This document shows positions 34,185-42,312 of a DNA stretch of 42,312 nt, one piece after another; position 1 is the first letter of the stretch, and the number at the start of each line of letters is the position of its first letter. Under the pieces are notes generated by a model, which saw only the letters and a program-made list of their open reading frames with translations, made no database searches and had not been told where the DNA came from. Source of the stretch: Oscillospiraceae bacterium (GTDB lineage Bacteria; Bacillota; Clostridia; Oscillospirales; UBA929); the NCBI GenBank assembly GCA_031253545.1, contig JAIRWH010000009.1:67066-109377 (forward strand). Direction: 5' to 3'. Position numbers and translations under genes: made by a program.

Positions 34185-34239
34185 ATAACGCCAAATCCGG
34201 AAACCTTGCGTAATCAAGGGGTAGCGGATATGGCGTTAT
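34185..34239. repeat. Large imperfect palindrome upstream of parA
   Basis: 15-nt arms (34185-34199 and 34225-34239; ATAACGCCAAATCCG against CGGATATGGCGTTAT, one mismatch) enclose a second stem CCTTG/CAAGG (34204-34208 with 34215-34219). A related half-site TTGGCGT...TAACGC occurs at 34296-34313. The 33977-34351 gap has no gene. It holds this, a TAGTTGTTAGTTGTTAG stretch (34152-34170) and TATAAT at 34181. It could bind a partition protein or be a recombination site. Confidence 0.5.
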
Positions 34240-34351
34240 CTTTCTCCGCTCTTTTCCAACTCAAAACGAGGGACCGGTTTTTCGGATTGGCAGACTTGGC
34301 GTGATATTAACGCTAAAACCGCCCCTCTGAAAAAACGAAGGAGGGAACACT

Positions 34352-34831
34352 ATGGGCAAAATATTCGCAATCTCCAACATGAAAGGCGGCGTGGGTAAGA
34401 CCATGACCGCCGTGAGCCTCGGCGCGGGGCTTGCAAGGCAGGGTAAGAGCGTACTATGTATTGACGCGGACGCTCAGCGCTCGCTCACGCTCAGCCTCGG
34501 CGTAACCCTGCCGGAGAAGCTCCCCGTTACCCTTGCCACTCTGCTGACGCGCGTTGTCAATGAACAAGACATCTCCCCCGGAGAAGGTATCATCCGCCAC
34601 GGCGACGGGCTTGACCTGCTCCCCGCAAACAACACCCTCGCGGGATTGGAAGTCGCCCTCGCCGGGCTAATCGGCAGGGAAGGTGTGCTCAGGCGGTACG
34701 TTGACGGAGTAAGGCCGTTGTATGATTATGTAGTCGTGGACTGCGCCCCGTCGCTTAACCTGCTCACAATCAACGCCCTTGCCGCCTGCGACGGCGCCGG
34801 TAAGCGATTATCGGGACACGGGCGCGGCTGA
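34352..34831 (+). pseudogene. ParA/Soj-type ATPase, truncated at the C-terminus
   Basis: 159-aa remainder of a ParA-type partition ATPase (full length about 260-280 aa). Seen: deviant Walker A KGGVGKT (residues 11-17), CIDADAQRSLTLSLG, and Walker B VVVDCAPS. The similarity stops after TINALAACD, and the frame ends 12 residues later. From about 34780 a different frame stays open to TAA 34934 (including TSFYIEGRFTM), suggesting a fusion to another gene's 3' end. A strong SD (AAGGAGGG) precedes ATG 34352. No parB gene is seen. Typical of mobile elements or plasmid-derived regions. Confidence 0.75.
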
Positions 34832-34923
34832 AGTTACGAACCGGGGAACCTCTTTTTACATCGAGGGTAGATTTACCATGCGACCGAACGAATACAAGGT
34901 TATTCTTTCCCCGTTGATAAGAC

Positions 34924-36550
34924 TCAATTCTTAACCACAATTTTCGTCACGTGTGTCCACCCAAGCCGTGTACGGACATAATCCAAAAGTTGTTTTTCAA
35001 ACGGTGTCAGCCATTCGGGATTGTTGTCGGCAAACAGCACAATTTCCCATACATAGTAATACTGTCCGCTTTTCCTTTGGTGACAGCGCAGCTCACACAT
35101 TGCCTTGCAATGGTAGAATGCGTTTACGATACGGGCAATGGAGTTATGAACATTGTCACTGCTTACCCAATCGAACATCTGAAGTTCCTGCTTTGGTTTG
35201 CGGAGAGGCGTGATGTTTACGCGATAATCCACTTCATTGACGCTTTTGACCGCATTGCACTGCTTGCATAAGGTTTGTAAATTGGACACGGCATTATTAC
35301 CGCCCATAGCAATAGGACGGATATGGTCTGCGTTGAGCGGCACACCCTTACGCTGCGCTTTGCCACAACACAGGCAAACGTAATTATCGCGGACAAACAC
35401 TTGACGCTTTATCTCGTCTGTCAGTTCGTCGGCGGACTCCTCGTTCGGCGTGATTTCAACGTCCACCGCGTCGATAAAAATCCGATTCATGGCTTTATCG
35501 AAAGCGTCCTTGAAATTGCTGTAGCTCTTGTAGAAAAAGCCCCAATGTTTGCCGCTGTCGTTGAAGATGTTGCGGAGAATAACGTCAATTTTCCTTTGTG
35601 AAACATCTGCCAACTCGTTCGCCAGCTTATCCATGTCGTATGCGTCGCGCTTGTGAAAGTCAACAAATAACGGCTGTGTGTCATTCTGCGCCATGTGACG
35701 GATAATCTTTGCGATATTGCCAATTAGCATATCGTCAAAATTATCTGTTTCTGTGTTGAAGTATTCGTCCGCAAGTTCGCCGGCTTTATTCTCCAATCGG
35801 CTCTCGGGTACATTTTCAGCCGCGTATGCCGTTAGGTCTTGAGTGGCAAGGCATTTAATCAGGCTTTCGTAGCCGTCCCTGTTAAATTCGTAGATGATTA
35901 TATTCTCTTCAAAAGAGATAAGCTCCTCTGCCGCCCCTTCCTCAATGGCTATCGTGTATTCGCAATTAAAGAAGCCCACGGGAATAAACGTCAAATAGTC
36001 CGCGTTTTCAAAGCCTTTGTAGTCAATATCGGCGACCGCAAGTTTTATTAGCTGGATAGAGATAAACGACATGGGATTTCTGCCTTGCCGCGCCGGACGC
36101 TCTGCTTCAAGACCGCCGTTCACATCGGCCCACGGGAGCAGACGTTTCCATGTGTCATGGAAGAACACGATGTTTGCGTAGTCCTTGCCCGTGCCGCCTC
36201 CAGCTTTTTCGCCGCGCAAGGCGCGTCCTATCATCTGCGTGAGGAGAATATTACTCGTTGTCTGCCGCGTGACCATAACGGTCTTGACATCGGGAACATC
36301 TACACCCTCGGTCAGCATTTTCACGTTGACGACAACATCTAACTTCCCATCCTTGAAATCCTGCATTACCTGCCGATTCACGGCATCGTTGCGCCGCCCT
36401 GCGCCGCCGCGATACGGCTCGTCCTGTCCTGCCGCGACAGTATATACCGCTCCGGCTTTTATGCCTTGCTGTGTCAGCTTTGCTGTACGCATCCGCAATG
36501 GTTTCTGTGTGGCTTCGCGATGTGAATACCTGTGTAATCATCGTTTGCAT
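34924..36550 (-). pseudogene. SF2 helicase C-half with HNH nuclease, truncated and frameshifted
   Basis: The main frame (36498 to 34924) encodes helicase motifs V-VI (VNVKMLTEGVDVPDV, TQMIGRALRG), then a long alpha-helical part and an HNH nuclease (CLCCG, LNADHIRP, CKQCN) close to the end. The N-terminal ATPase half is absent. A second frame from ATG 36550, preceded by AAGGAGG, encodes TQVFTSRSHTETIADA, which looks like the missing motif IV segment, so one base appears to have been inserted at about 36490 (TTA...GCGT). Together they indicate a decayed restriction-type helicase/nuclease gene. It lies 48 bp after the kinase gene, on the same strand. Confidence 0.7.
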
Positions 36551-36598
36551 CGGGAAAACCTCCTTCCTTTATGATTTGCTATCGTTTGTCACATCGAA

Positions 36599-37462
36599 TT
36601 ATAAAAAGTAATTACATGGGTCATTCCATTTATCAAACCAGTACATAACGCTAATAGAATCATTGCAAGAAACATTGTCCCATAAACAAAAATCGTACAA
36701 TTGCCACTCCGCTTGTCTCAATTCGCATTTTATATCGTTTGCGATTTCTGGGTTCGAGTAAATTCTTAGGCATATTTTACTGACCAAATCCATTTGCCGA
36801 GCCAAACTATCCCCTGTATAACCGCCAGTAACCGCTCTGTTCGCTTCACCCCAAACATCGTTCATTTGAGAGAAAAGATTGAAACGGCTTAAAGGATATA
36901 TTCTGTCAGCACCGGCAGATGGGATATCCGCTAAAAATGTTTTCAAGTCTACCTTTTTCATTCTATTCGTACTACGCTCCTGTCGTATTTTGGTAATAAT
37001 TACATCGGACAAGAACTGACCCGATAGAAGCACTATATGTTTGCCGTGCTTGTCCGCTTCGAGACGGTCGATGAACCAATTCCAATCCTCGTAAAATATC
37101 GAAAGGAAGTTATCTGTATTGCCGCGGTCGATATATCGCTTCAAATATTCCTCTCGGCAATTACGATGAGGATAAATCAGTATGTACGATATACCTTCGT
37201 CAGCCAGCAAAGCCAAAACACGAAAGTCTGATGGAATTAGGACATAGGCATATTTTCTCATCACGTCTTTTATGACTGAAACATAATTACACGGCCAGTC
37301 GGGACGCATTTCGTTGTTGGGGTCTGCTTTTCCAGCTTCTCCACGGTTATTGGCTTCATTGAGATAGTATTTATACGGCAAACAGTGCAAATCAATGGCG
37401 TTTTCGCCAACCATACCTACAAACGTGGTCTTGCCGCATCCGGCATAAGCGGCGATAATCAT
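36599..37462 (-). CDS. P-loop kinase-like protein of phage type
   Basis: 287-aa protein, second gene of the RHH operon. Walker A is AYAGCGKTT (residues 5-13). The region YILIYPHRNCREEYLKRYI followed by DRGN (93-115) looks like the lid/substrate part of nucleotide or nucleoside kinases, as in phage-borne kinases; DWPCNYV and VLIPSD are further family-like blocks. The C-terminal half (from ~150) is not recognised. It could phosphorylate a nucleoside or nucleotide, or a peptidoglycan precursor in the manner of zeta toxins; the latter is only a possibility suggested by the RHH partner. ATG 37462 overlaps the RHH stop (ATGA). Confidence 0.6.
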   Translation of the reverse strand: MIIAAYAGCGKTTFVGMVGENAIDLHCLPYKYYLNEANNRGEAGKADPNNEMRPDWPCNYVSVIKDVMRKYAYVLIPSDFRVLALLADEGISYILIYPHRNCREEYLKRYIDRGNTDNFLSIFYEDWNWFIDRLEADKHGKHIVLLSGQFLSDVIITKIRQERSTNRMKKVDLKTFLADIPSAGADRIYPLSRFNLFSQMNDVWGEANRAVTGGYTGDSLARQMDLVSKICLRIYSNPEIANDIKCELRQAEWQLYDFCLWDNVSCNDSISVMYWFDKWNDPCNYFL

Positions 37463-37938
37463 GTGGCAACCTCGACCTCATCTTCCTTTATGAATACTTC
37501 GTAAATAGCTGTACCATATCGGTCAACTTTTCCTGTGTATCGCACATTAGGGAAGGCTTTCCCTTTTTTAACCTCGTTGTAAAAATGCTTTCCCACAGAG
37601 GCTCTCAAAGGCTTAGGAACAGTACCATCTGCCATATTTTCGTGCTGTGGGTTATTATGCCAACGCCAACTGGGTGTAATCTCTCGTAAAACAAATCGCG
37701 GGTTGATATCATTATTGGCAAGTACCTCAGCAACCTTCTTCGCTACCGCGCTTGTGACTTCTTGGTAAATCTCGGCAAAGGAAAGCTTGCTCACTTTCGA
37801 GTTTTTTATTGTGTCAGGATACGCTAAAGCGATTTCTTTTACAAATTGCGATACACTCGAAAAACCTGCAATGAGAGCATTCTGTTCGATAGCTTCATAC
37901 TCCTCATCGGTCGCTCTAAATTGGATTCTTGGTGCCAT
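37459..37938 (-). CDS. Ribbon-helix-helix protein with C-terminal DUF1413-like domain
   Basis: 159-aa likely DNA-binding regulator. The N-terminus is a ribbon-helix-helix: strand IQFRATDEEYEAIEQNA, then helix GFSSVSQFVKEIAL. A middle helical linker (SFAEIYQEVTSAVAKKVAEVL) precedes a C-terminal part ASVGKHFYNEVKKG..PNVRY similar to DUF1413. ATG 37938 has GGGAGG 7 nt upstream. It is the first gene of a two-gene operon and overlaps the kinase gene by 4 bp. A perfect inverted repeat at the promoter makes autoregulation plausible, as for RHH antitoxins. Confidence 0.75.
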   Translation of the reverse strand: MAPRIQFRATDEEYEAIEQNALIAGFSSVSQFVKEIALAYPDTIKNSKVSKLSFAEIYQEVTSAVAKKVAEVLANNDINPRFVLREITPSWRWHNNPQHENMADGTVPKPLRASVGKHFYNEVKKGKAFPNVRYTGKVDRYGTAIYEVFIKEDEVEVAT

Positions 37939-37948
37939 GACTCAACCT

Positions 37949-37990
37949 CCCTTATAATCTTAATGTGTCGCCACATTAAGATTATAAGGG
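37949..37990. promoter_or_regulatory. Perfect 19-bp inverted repeat, likely RHH operator
   Basis: CCCTTATAATCTTAATGTG (37949-37967) and its exact complement (37972-37990) flank a 4-nt loop. The distal arm contains the -10 box and the proximal arm runs to 10 bp before the RHH ATG, covering the SD. Position fits an autorepressor site; as RNA it would also form a strong hairpin over the SD. Confidence 0.7.
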
Positions 37991-38009
37991 ATAACTAACA
38001 GCTTGTCAA
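37981..38009 (-). promoter_or_regulatory. Consensus promoter of the RHH-kinase operon
   Basis: TTGACA (38009-38004), 17-bp spacer, TATAAT (37986-37981) on the minus strand: an exact sigma-A consensus. The -10 lies inside the inverted repeat. Confidence 0.85.
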
Positions 38010-38042
38010 TACATTTTTGGAAATTAACAAAAAATCCACAAT

Positions 38043-38237
38043 TCACCCGTCAATCGTCCAGCGAATCTCGCAGACATGACCGACCCATCCCGTGGCGACG
38101 ACGCCCGCCTGAAACATAATGTCAGTAAACCACACCTCGCCCGTGCAGTTTTGAATAATGAGCCGGACGGTGATTGAACGCAGCTTGCCGTAGCCTTTCG
38201 GCGAAGCGTCCCGCGCCGTGTGTTGGAAATACGCCAT
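38043..38237 (-). CDS. Small phage-related protein (probable remnant)
   Basis: 64-aa frame from ATG 38237 with GAGGGGA upstream. The C-terminal part (NCTGEVWFTDIMFQAG, GWVGHVCEIRW) resembles the end of phage structural proteins seen in Firmicute prophages. No phage neighbours remain except the fragment before it. Functional status unknown. A longer overlapping frame (38024-38338) on the same strand has no such similarity and is rejected. Confidence 0.45.
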   Translation of the reverse strand: MAYFQHTARDASPKGYGKLRSITVRLIIQNCTGEVWFTDIMFQAGVVATGWVGHVCEIRWTIDG

Positions 38238-38252
38238 ATAACCACCGTCCCC

Positions 38253-38375
38253 TCAGAATAAATCAATGAACCGCGTCTCGGTCGTGCCGTCCTCAATGAA
38301 AACACCGTCTTTGATACAATTACATTTTCCGCAAACAACGCTCAAATTGCGGTATACACGGGCTTTCGTGGGTTT
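38253..38375 (-). pseudogene. 3' fragment of a phage-associated gene
   Basis: A 41-codon frame without a start codon reads RVYRNLSVVCGKCNCIKDG followed by VFIEDGTTETRFIDLF and then TGA, 16 bp before the small phage-like gene. The cysteine pair (CGKCNC) and the coherent C-terminus make it look like a real gene end, cut off at its 5' side by an in-frame stop near 38376. Confidence 0.45.
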
Positions 38376-38401
38376 TCAGTAACCTCCGAAAGCCCTTTTT
38401 T
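38360..38401 (+). terminator. Rho-independent terminator (plus strand)
   Basis: GGGCTTTCG (38360-38368) pairs with CGAAAGCCC (38387-38395), with an inner GGTT/AACC stem, followed by TTTTTTC. It is a textbook terminator reading rightward, but no intact plus-strand gene precedes it, so it probably belonged to a lost gene. On the minus strand it would also slow transcripts from the genes at 38522 and beyond. Confidence 0.75.
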
Positions 38402-38521
38402 CATTACCGATTTATGGTGACAACGGGTCGCCACGGCTTTCGGATTTGAGTTTTGCACCCTTTTGTTTTCGCCGCCAGAGGAAAAATCAAAAGGTTTAGG
38501 AAACGTCAAAAGGTGTGCAAG

Positions 38522-40588
38522 TCACTCGTCAGCATCCTGTTTGCGGAATGCTTGCTCAATAAGTTCCATAACATCGTCCAGTTGGTCGAGACTTTCAAAA
38601 GGAACCTGAACATCACAACTTGCAAAATTACCAAGCTCCGTCATATCTTTACAGATTCCTTTTGGGTCTATGACTTCATTAAACTTCATATTTATTCCCA
38701 ACAACAGACGTTGTTTCTGAAGCAATATGCTAACGAAATTCGAATCGGCTTTATAAGCGATGTAGGATTTTTTAAACTCCCGCTTTACAAATGTGCCGAG
38801 ATTCATAATTCGGATGTTCAGCGATTCAAAAAGTATTCTGTTGTAGGCGTTTATTTGGTCATAGCTGTCAAGGGCATACTGCTGGGTTGGTTCGTCTTGT
38901 TTAGCATACGGCGCAAATTCGTTTTCGGTAAGCGTCGGGTATGGCCACGCTTTTTTAGCAATCTCGCCAAGCTGCGCGGCGCGTTCCTTAACTTGCTCTT
39001 CGCTCCATGTTATTTGGGTTACGACATACTTATTCAGACGGAGCGCGCTTTCTTTGAATCCACCCTCCATATCAAGTTTTTCCGAAAACGACGAATCGCT
39101 CATCTCAGAATTGTATGCGGTCAGCGTCAGGTTGCCGATTGTGTGCAAATATTTCTTTTGAATTTCGCTCCAGTTGTTGCCAAGAGCAGCTACCCAATCC
39201 ACCGATAAATTCGGGTTCTGCGGAATAATGTGTTCGATGGTCAGGTTTTCCAAAGAAACAACTGATTTATTATCCCAATTTTCGAGACGGCTGAGAATAT
39301 AACGGCAGCGATTCATGTTGTAGATGTCCCGTGAAAGAAACGTAGCAAGGAAGCGCTCGTTGTTTGGGAACTCCTTATAGGAATCAAGGAGTATAAAGAT
39401 TGCTTTTATGGAGTTCAAATAATCATCTGAGTTGATGTCGTTCTTCATCGTGGCGAAGGTTTTATTCAGGGAGTTTGTCGGTATATCGCAGACGGCGCGG
39501 CGAAGGACGTAACTCACACAGAGTTGCACAATCTCCCGCAACGCATCAATCGTTATTAGTCCCTTGTCGCAGTCATCGTGAATCTTCAAAAGAAACGGAT
39601 AGGCCACCTCCATACGGATGGCTTTCATATCTTCGTACAGGGATTTCAAAACAGGGTCGCTACTTCTGACGAAGTGCATATCAGAGTAGTGCTTCGCGAA
39701 AGCATATATGTCTTGGCAGAGGTTACGGATATTCATGCCGCAGTTTTTATGATAGGCTCGGAATTCTTTGTACACCTCATTTTTCCTCGGAATCCTGCCG
39801 AGCTTCATCGTAAGATAGTCACGAAAGAAATTGTCGAGCAGTTCACTTTGGTGTTCATAATCGAAGAGCAGTTCCGTTGGTCTCCAGATATTATTGTAAA
39901 CATTCGTCTGAGATGCGGAATCCAGTCCCATCAACAGATGGTTTCGGATGAGGTCGGAGTCCTTCAAGTCCATACCCGTGGAGTTCAAGCTCTCGAAAAT
40001 TGCCTGCGGGTCGTCATATTGGCGGTCAAGTACGATATCCACGATTTGAAGTTTGCCGACAGCATCGTATAGGTCGGAAGGCGAAATTTCACCCTTACCT
40101 ATTTGTCCTGAGAAATAGCCATAATTATCCAACACACGCGATTTCAGAGAATCGGGAATCGGTGCGCTCTCGATTTTTTTGATGAGCGCATCTCTGTCGG
40201 ACTGCGTGAGGAGCAGCTTGTATTTGGCATCGCCTGACTCGTATTGATTAAGTAGCAGCGTATCCGTGATTTTATTCGGATTTACGCCGCAGTCTGTATG
40301 CGCCACAGCATAATCGCGCAACGCGACGAGAAGCAAGGTCAACGTGGTAAGTCTCTGTTGCCCGTCAATAATCATCGCAAGAGTTGAGCCCGCCGCCGAG
40401 TCCTCATCAATACGGACTATCGAGCCTACAAAATGACCCTCTCGATGCGTTGCATGGAGGTTGACAATGTCGTTCCAAAGGCGGGCGCATTGCTCGCGCT
40501 CCCAACTGTAGGTTCTCTGATACAGCGGTATCAAGTATTGGCACGTCCCGCCGAGATATTTGTAGATGTTGCTCTTGAAAGCGTTCAT
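38522..40588 (-). CDS. DUF262/DUF1524 (GmrSD-like) nuclease protein
   Basis: 688-aa protein of the GmrSD/type IV restriction group, which attacks modified (e.g. glucosylated) DNA or otherwise limits phages. Seen: N-terminal DUF262 with IPLYQRTYSWE (~21-31) and the IDGQQRLTTL motif (D75), a helical middle, DUF1524 HNH-type site TIEHIIPQ (H453) plus GNLTLTAYN, and a C-terminal DUF5655-like domain (from ~590). The length and motifs look intact. ATG 40588 is chosen over ATG 40594, since GGAGG lies 9 nt upstream of it and only 3 nt from the other. It begins 17 bp after hsdR on the same strand, so it probably belongs to that operon. Confidence 0.85.
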   Translation of the reverse strand: MNAFKSNIYKYLGGTCQYLIPLYQRTYSWEREQCARLWNDIVNLHATHREGHFVGSIVRIDEDSAAGSTLAMIIDGQQRLTTLTLLLVALRDYAVAHTDCGVNPNKITDTLLLNQYESGDAKYKLLLTQSDRDALIKKIESAPIPDSLKSRVLDNYGYFSGQIGKGEISPSDLYDAVGKLQIVDIVLDRQYDDPQAIFESLNSTGMDLKDSDLIRNHLLMGLDSASQTNVYNNIWRPTELLFDYEHQSELLDNFFRDYLTMKLGRIPRKNEVYKEFRAYHKNCGMNIRNLCQDIYAFAKHYSDMHFVRSSDPVLKSLYEDMKAIRMEVAYPFLLKIHDDCDKGLITIDALREIVQLCVSYVLRRAVCDIPTNSLNKTFATMKNDINSDDYLNSIKAIFILLDSYKEFPNNERFLATFLSRDIYNMNRCRYILSRLENWDNKSVVSLENLTIEHIIPQNPNLSVDWVAALGNNWSEIQKKYLHTIGNLTLTAYNSEMSDSSFSEKLDMEGGFKESALRLNKYVVTQITWSEEQVKERAAQLGEIAKKAWPYPTLTENEFAPYAKQDEPTQQYALDSYDQINAYNRILFESLNIRIMNLGTFVKREFKKSYIAYKADSNFVSILLQKQRLLLGINMKFNEVIDPKGICKDMTELGNFASCDVQVPFESLDQLDDVMELIEQAFRKQDADE

Positions 40589-40605
40589 TCCCATTATCCT
40601 CCCCG

Positions 40606-42312
40606 TTAATTATCAGTCCACATCTCACACTGACCGATGACTGTGGCGATTGCGTCTTCCATGCCCTCCGGCGGGTATTTGTATTTTCTCAACAGTTTTT
40701 TTACCATACGCCGCATACCCGCACGGGCGGATTCTTTTTTCTGCCAGTCAATGGTGCGGTTGCGGCGAAGCATATCCGAAAGTTCACGGGTCATCTCAAC
40801 AAGCACATCATTTTCGTAAAAATCCTTTACCGCTTCGGGACGGGTCAAAGCATCGTAGAACGCCAGCTCCTCGTCGGAAAGCCCCATCGCGTCGCCTTCG
40901 GCTTGGGCGTTCGCCATGTCCTTTGCCATCTTCATAAGTTCTGCGATGACTTCCTCGTTGGTGAGCATACCGTTGAGATAGGCTTTCATTGCGCGGGAAA
41001 GCATCTCCGAAAACTTCTCGCTCTTGACAAGGTTAGTGCGACGGTAAAGGGACACTTGCTCGGCAAGCAGTTTTTTCAGGATTTCAACGGCGAGGTTCTT
41101 TTCCTTCATCTTGGCGATTTCGTCAAGGAATTTCGGGTCGAAAAGCGAGAAGCCCGTGTCCACATCGGAAAACAGATTTATAACGCCCTCGCTTTGAATG
41201 CTCGCTTTCAAGAGTTCGTTAATTCGCGCGTTGATTTCTTTCAGCGACAGCGGCTTGCCCTCTCCTGTGATACGGGTTAGGAGCGTCCGCACCGTTTCAA
41301 AATACGCCGCCTCAAGGCGCTGCTCGGCGGTGAGAAGCGAGCGGCAGAGTGACAACGCCTGACGGAGCAGCATTGACTCTTTGATGAAGACATCTTTGCG
41401 ACTTGCGGCATTGCCATAACCGACAGACGGTTCGGCGACTCGTAACAATTCTTCTTTTACTGTGCTGTTATGCTGTGCGTCAACAGCCGTCAAGAAATTC
41501 ACGCCACCCATTATAGCTTTGGCTCGGACGAGGTCGCTATCGGTGGATAAGAACGCCGAATAGTCAAAGCCGTGCATCAAGTTACGGCACACTTCCAACT
41601 TTTCAATAAACTTCGGCAGGGCGGTTTTGGCGATGTCGGTATCGCCGTAGTTGTTCTTGTCACGGTTAGTATAGTCGTTCATCGCCTGCTTCAAAGCCGA
41701 AGCGATGCCGACGTAATCGACGACAAGCCCACCTTCTTTGTCGCCGTACACGCGGTTGACTCGGGCGATTGCCTGCATAAGATTATGTCCGCTCATCGGT
41801 TTGTAAACGTACATCGTGGCAAGCGACGGCACGTCAAAACCCGTCAGCCACATATCCACCACGATGGCGATTTTCAATGGGTCTTCATTATCCTTGAATT
41901 TTTTCGCCATCTCGTCTTTGCGGCGTTTGTTTCCGATAATCTCCCGCCAGCTTTCCGGGTCGTCGTTGCCGCTCGTCATAACCACGCCGACTTTCTCCGT
42001 CCATTCCGGTCGCATTTTCAGCAGCTTGTCATAAATCCTCATAGCTATCGGACGTGAGTAAGCGACGACCATCGCTTTGCCGGTCTGCTCGTACTGACGG
42101 TTTTCCTCGTAGTGCTTCACAATATCCTCGCATAAGGCGGTTATGGTATCGTCCGCGCCGAGGATGCTGTCCATTTTACCGAGTTCTTTCTTGCTCTTTT
42201 CGATGGCATACGGCTCGGCGTTCTGCGCCATAACGTCGTACTCGGCGTCGATAAGCCGCAAAACCTCCTCGTCTAACTTCAAATGGATAACGCGGCTCTC
42301 GTAGTAGACAGG
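40606..42312 (-). CDS. hsdR: Type I restriction endonuclease subunit HsdR (partial, C-terminal part)
   Basis: The 5' part lies past the right edge. About 569 codons remain, opening in YYESRVIHLKLDEEVLR, which is internal to HsdR. Seen: the second helicase half with VVAYSRPIAMRIYD, VDMWLTGFDVPSLATMYV, and motif VI QAIARVNR, then the helical C-terminal region typical of HsdR that contacts HsdM/HsdS. HsdR translocates DNA and cleaves unmodified DNA. The stop TAA is at 40608-40606. hsdM and hsdS would be expected upstream, outside the window. The frame is intact here. Confidence 0.92.
   Translation of the reverse strand, partial: PVYYESRVIHLKLDEEVLRLIDAEYDVMAQNAEPYAIEKSKKELGKMDSILGADDTITALCEDIVKHYEENRQYEQTGKAMVVAYSRPIAMRIYDKLLKMRPEWTEKVGVVMTSGNDDPESWREIIGNKRRKDEMAKKFKDNEDPLKIAIVVDMWLTGFDVPSLATMYVYKPMSGHNLMQAIARVNRVYGDKEGGLVVDYVGIASALKQAMNDYTNRDKNNYGDTDIAKTALPKFIEKLEVCRNLMHGFDYSAFLSTDSDLVRAKAIMGGVNFLTAVDAQHNSTVKEELLRVAEPSVGYGNAASRKDVFIKESMLLRQALSLCRSLLTAEQRLEAAYFETVRTLLTRITGEGKPLSLKEINARINELLKASIQSEGVINLFSDVDTGFSLFDPKFLDEIAKMKEKNLAVEILKKLLAEQVSLYRRTNLVKSEKFSEMLSRAMKAYLNGMLTNEEVIAELMKMAKDMANAQAEGDAMGLSDEELAFYDALTRPEAVKDFYENDVLVEMTRELSDMLRRNRTIDWQKKESARAGMRRMVKKLLRKYKYPPEGMEDAIATVIGQCEMWTDN

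Follow-up and report, generated by a model that had tools for sequence, protein, structure and literature searches.

A DNA-binding domain and a P-loop kinase are carried by a single polypeptide in NadR, a repressor joined to an NMNAT and a kinase. As separate proteins, they are paired in the RHH-type PezA/PezT of M. tuberculosis (Rv0367c-Rv0366c), where a ribbon-helix-helix (RHH) protein and a P-loop kinase form a proposed toxin-antitoxin system (PMC6362051). Here, we describe a two-gene unit in a stretch of 42,312 nucleotides (the window) from an Oscillospiraceae bacterium (contig JAIRWH010000009.1). Judged by its sequence, the pair is of the RHH-plus-P-loop-kinase kind and is a new variant outside zeta/PezT, since its kinase family and the C-terminus of the partner differ from those of PezA/PezT, and zeta membership fails.

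Layout and promoter region of the two-gene unit

An earlier note on this DNA had described a small RHH protein gene overlapping a P-loop kinase-like gene, both under one consensus promoter. Both open reading frames proved to be real and intact, on the minus strand where the note had placed them, and to overlap by ATGA (Table 1). The single strong promoter was also confirmed, with TTGACA-N17-TATAAT (38009-37981) being the sole 12/12 match to the sigma-70 consensus in 34200-42312, where the runners-up score 9/12. The gene for the small DNA-binding protein comes first and that for the enzyme second, which is the layout of type II toxin-antitoxin operons.

Table 1. Features of the two-gene unit and its surroundings in the window.
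Feature	Coordinates	Strand	Remarks
RHH-DUF1413-like protein gene	37459-37938	-	159 aa; intact ORF; proposed autorepressor
P-loop phosphotransferase (kinase) gene	36599-37462	-	287 aa; intact ORF
Kinase C-terminal extension	36599-36970	-	residues 165-287 (about 120 aa); helical; no relatives found
Stop/start overlap ATGA	37459-37462	-	RHH gene and kinase gene
-35 hexamer TTGACA	38004..38009	-	12/12 sigma-70 match together with -10; spacer 17
-10 hexamer TATAAT	37981..37986	-	within upstream arm of palindrome
Shine-Dalgarno AAGGGAGG	37946..37953	-	7 nt upstream of RHH ATG; read from sequence
Perfect inverted repeat (palindrome)	37948..37991	.	putative operator; two 20-nt arms (37948-37967, 37972-37991), 4-nt loop
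GmrSD-type restriction gene	38522-40594
HsdR C-terminal part	40606-42282		cut by contig end
Helicase-HNH gene, truncated	34924-36498	-

The earlier note had overlooked a palindrome whose arms are 100% complementary and which takes in the -10 box and the predicted start site and extends into the Shine-Dalgarno sequence. None of the shuffles of the upstream region approached this inverted repeat, and the half-site has no second copy in the 1.8 Mb genome when up to 2 mismatches are allowed. In the simplest reading, the RHH protein would use the palindrome as its DNA operator. Read-through RNA folds it into a hairpin that reaches the Shine-Dalgarno site (-31 kcal/mol, z -7.5), suggesting a secondary silencing of read-through translation, while RNA from the operon's own predicted start site holds the second arm only and does not fold. 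Because this start falls inside the palindrome, an mRNA hairpin is unlikely as the main control of the operon's own transcripts, and would affect read-through transcripts only.

RHH-DUF1413 genes that have unrelated partners also tend to carry an inverted repeat downstream of the -10 box and ahead of the start codon. Four of six loci, including the window, showed such a repeat at p <= 0.021 each, and the combined p over the six (the window and the fusion locus L104, described below, among them) was about 1e-6, with the qualification that the loci are not all independent, because L108 and L128 look related. Among the other RHH-DUF1413 genes (L108, L115, L123 and L128), whose promoters score 9-12/12, the repeat was found in three of four at p <= 0.021; the promoter of the L104 fusion has no significant inverted repeat (p 0.25).

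The proposal that the first gene encodes an RHH regulator was borne out by a match to the Pfam NikA-like family (PF21983; E 5.6e-7, 30.1 bits against a curated cut-off of 27). The DUF1413 assignment stood in part: the match to PF07205 (E 0.039, 14.6 bits) lies under the curated cut-off of 25, but an alignment shows the C-terminal half of the protein to be similar to the corresponding half of other RHH-DUF1413 proteins, and to the L104 fusion. We use the label DUF1413-like because the profile score is below the cut-off and the similarity is seen by alignment. The predicted model folded poorly (pLDDT 43), and the protein's fold therefore rests on sequence. As a query against plasmids and phages, the RHH protein gave no match. 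DUF1413 proteins were present in 20 of 291 genomes of the class, several of them beside serine recombinases, and RHH-DUF1413 genes elsewhere precede other small genes that are different at each locus. At one locus (L119 1453-2971, plus strand), there is an overlap between a DUF1413 gene and the 5' end of a gene for a C5 cytosine methyltransferase, as might be seen with a controller protein.

Family and distribution of the kinase

Residues 2-173 of the kinase match phrog_4182 at E 9.8e-35, a profile match over the kinase domain, which together with the predicted fold confirmed that the second gene encodes a P-loop, kinase-like protein and that its resemblance to phage nucleoside kinases had been correctly noted. 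The kinase-family part comprises residues 1-160 only, a point missed in the earlier note. In a model built with 44 sequences, pLDDT was >90 across most of residues 1-150, and the C-terminal extension was modelled with low confidence (pLDDT about 35-77). Foldseek returned mainly guanylate kinases and AK6/Fap7 from the PDB (E 1e-4 to 1e-3, prob 1.0, with TM about 0.5 normalised by target). In a viral library, the matches were phage proteins, some of them named nucleotide or guanylate kinase. The predicted structure confirmed an NMP-kinase fold, guanylate kinase/AK6-like, for the kinase domain, with Walker A present.

Across 44 homologues, G10, K11, D24 and R113 are invariant and R109 is nearly so; K11, D24, R109 and R113 are kept in the window. 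Both RHH-linked kinases (that of the window and that of the fusion) replace D26 with H, S27 with C, S77 with P and H79 with D, at positions that are 89-93% conserved, and about 90% conserved in phage enzymes, suggesting that the substrate may have changed in these two proteins. The suggested connection to zeta toxins did not hold, since there was no Pfam Zeta_toxin match. Membership in zeta/PezT was accordingly rejected, as no Pfam family was matched at E <= 1 and the best 50 PDB fold matches did not include a zeta toxin. Pfam, NCBIfam and PADLOC gave no match for the kinase, which belongs to no recognised toxin family.

According to the earlier note, kinase homologues that usually occur alone in phages would refute its proposal, and this is how they were found. 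Kinase-domain homologues are present in 216 phage records, and relatives are encoded at 161 places in IMG/VR, 80 of which were retrieved. When the window RHH protein was used as query against the open reading frames of the fetched loci, a search that would miss very divergent RHH proteins, no RHH partner was recognisable at the viral kinase loci examined. Pfam families of 92 neighbour proteins from about 42 kinase loci were mixed, with no consistent partner. A macro-domain gene precedes the kinase gene in Listeria phage LIS04, and tk.4 precedes it in Acinetobacter phage Acj61 (L012 1313-2429 / L010 1523-2492, plus strand); as hints to the substrate, these neighbours are suggestive and not general.

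In bacteria, the kinase was found in 2/394 genomes of the order (2/18 of the family), with 6 other carriers among 391 genomes of the class and 1 other among 399 of the phylum; the other genome of the window's genus lacks it. A first scan of genome contigs with the single kinase protein as query gave no match, and a second, with an alignment as query, returned L104 and a distant Erysipelotrichaceae copy (L105) only. On the genomes searched, the kinase gene is rare in bacteria, and this kinase type is otherwise mostly found in large phages. One divergent homologue lies between apparent tsf and pyrH genes, inside a housekeeping operon (L019 681-3369, minus strand). Among the bacterial kinase carriers examined, the RHH part accompanies the kinase in the window and in one other genome (G001) only.

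A fused form in a related genus and the readings of the pair

G001 belongs to the same family as the window and to another genus, and encodes a single 268-aa protein consisting of an RHH domain, a DUF1413-like domain and the kinase domain. The fusion gene is also present in public contig WRLU01000005.1 of the Oscillospiraceae MAG Th196P3bin40 (loci L002, L014 and L104). Its kinase domain is 69% identical to that of the window over 157 residues, and it has no counterpart of window kinase residues 165-287. Pfam detected neither RHH nor DUF1413 in the L104 fusion, and the assignment of its N-terminal domains therefore rests on alignment; searched against the fetched open reading frames, the window RHH protein found the L104 N-terminus at phmmer E 0.009. 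Used as query against plasmids and viral contigs, this N-terminus gave no relatives. The fusion gene ends in an ATGA overlap with a 70-aa HTH-like open reading frame (L104 6474-6686, plus strand), for which Pfam and PHROGs gave no match.

The window kinase and the kinase of the fusion form a sister pair (support 0.99) to which viral sequences lie closest, the latter grouping being weakly supported. Between the two kinase domains, dN was 0.21 and dS about 3.7 (saturated), giving a dN/dS of about 0.06, which indicates purifying selection on the kinase domain. Since the same two parts are fused into one protein in a relative, the RHH gene and the kinase gene are probably functionally linked. No other evidence ties the two genes together as strongly as the fusion, and the linkage is a sample of two, as only two genomes have the combination.

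The idea that the pair sits in a defence island was upheld for the window, where restriction genes flank it, and did not extend to the fused homologue, whose surroundings hold no restriction or defence genes. Just upstream of the operon (38043-38237, minus strand) lies a gene for a small phage protein matching phrog_3473 (E 3e-24) and also the tail protein family phrog_12827, which may be taken as a sign of prophage remains. The helicase-HNH gene is a 5'-truncated remnant (34924-36550, minus strand) with a frameshift near 36480, and its start continues in an overlapping open reading frame, 36251-36550. In a ParA-like open reading frame (34352-34831, plus strand), homology is apparently lost past 'NALAACDG' (about 34797), as if it were truncated or interrupted by the island.

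We favour, with moderate confidence, an autorepressed regulator-kinase module, in which a phage-derived nucleotide-type kinase is coupled to its own repressor. RHH protein dimers would bind the palindrome and shut off the very strong promoter, so that the kinase would be produced only once repression lifts. The kinase, as its NMP-kinase fold suggests, would phosphorylate a small nucleotide-like substrate, and would act in contact with the repressor. This coupling could take either of two forms: the substrate or product of the kinase may alter DNA binding by the repressor, as in NadR, or the repressor may also restrain the enzyme. By its role, the enzyme may be a restrained toxin, a sensor acting on the repressor or a tightly regulated metabolic enzyme. 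A large phage is the probable source of the kinase, whose substrate site would have changed since. In a narrower proposal, which we consider rather doubtful, the pair would be a one-component regulator whose phage-captured kinase domain senses a nucleotide and gates the RHH-DUF1413 repressor, existing in split (window) and fused (L104) forms; if so, the bacterium would use the substrate of a phage enzyme as its own signal.

Ranked behind autorepression with physical coupling is a classical type II toxin-antitoxin system, possible if on balance unlikely, in which the kinase would act as a toxin by phosphorylating an essential metabolite, with the RHH-DUF1413 protein as both its antitoxin and the autorepressor. 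It would account for the gene order, with the small DNA-binding protein first, the overlap, and the operator-like palindrome on a strong promoter; restriction genes are nearby, RHH-DUF1413 proteins precede small genes that vary by locus, and a pairing of RHH antitoxin with P-loop kinase toxin has been published (PMC6362051). However, the kinase is outside zeta/PezT, and large phages commonly carry homologues of it as single genes. The permanent fusion in L104 also appears ill-suited to a labile antitoxin with a stable toxin. Fused, self-inhibited toxin-antitoxin proteins do exist, such as CapRel.

We regard as improbable, and place third, the possibility that a phage-derived nucleotide-metabolism gene, surviving in what is left of a prophage or a mobile region, came to lie behind an unrelated RHH gene by chance. 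The mainly viral kinase family, the phage tail-protein gene immediately upstream and the broken helicase remnant downstream are consistent with such an origin, but the same two parts are fused in another genus, and the intact reading frames, the ATGA overlap and the low dN/dS all argue against a chance arrangement. The least probable of the four is a role in phage defence, whereby the kinase would remove or alter a nucleotide required by phages, its repression being lifted during infection. The location among restriction genes would fit, as would the SIR2-like domain gene near a distant kinase homologue (L017). Against it, the fused copy lies away from defence genes and phages themselves carry the kinase; a known defence system was sought with PADLOC, which matched neither the RHH protein nor the kinase.

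Comparison with known systems

Kinases of phrog_4182 in phages, annotated as AAA family ATPase or nucleotide kinase, have the P-loop, D24 and R109/R113 in common with the window. Where phage copies were examined, no RHH gene lay beside them, unlike in the window, and the window kinase has an extension of about 120 aa that they do not. On the regulator side, RHH-DUF1413 proteins at other Firmicutes loci share the two-domain architecture, a strong promoter and, in most cases, an inverted repeat that follows the -10 box, but there the gene that comes next encodes something other than a kinase. Neither phrog_4182, a very common phage gene family, nor DUF1413 has a known function, and the fusion offers a direct handle on both; a regulator joined to a kinase suggests that the two act on one pathway.

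The L104 fusion, by alignment, resembles NadR in uniting DNA-binding and kinase domains, which the window keeps in separate genes; the likeness is one of architecture, with RHH in place of HTH and no sequence relation claimed. As in omega-epsilon-zeta, an RHH regulator and a P-loop kinase share a locus, but the window has two genes, with no epsilon and no zeta match. The nearest published pairing found is RHH-type PezA/PezT, which likewise consists of an RHH protein and a P-loop kinase. In contrast to that pair, the window kinase is of another family and its partner is DUF1413-like, without the PezA/epsilon-like C-terminus. Should the kinase prove toxic or signal-sensing, RHH-controlled modules would gain a new P-loop family beside PezT and zeta.
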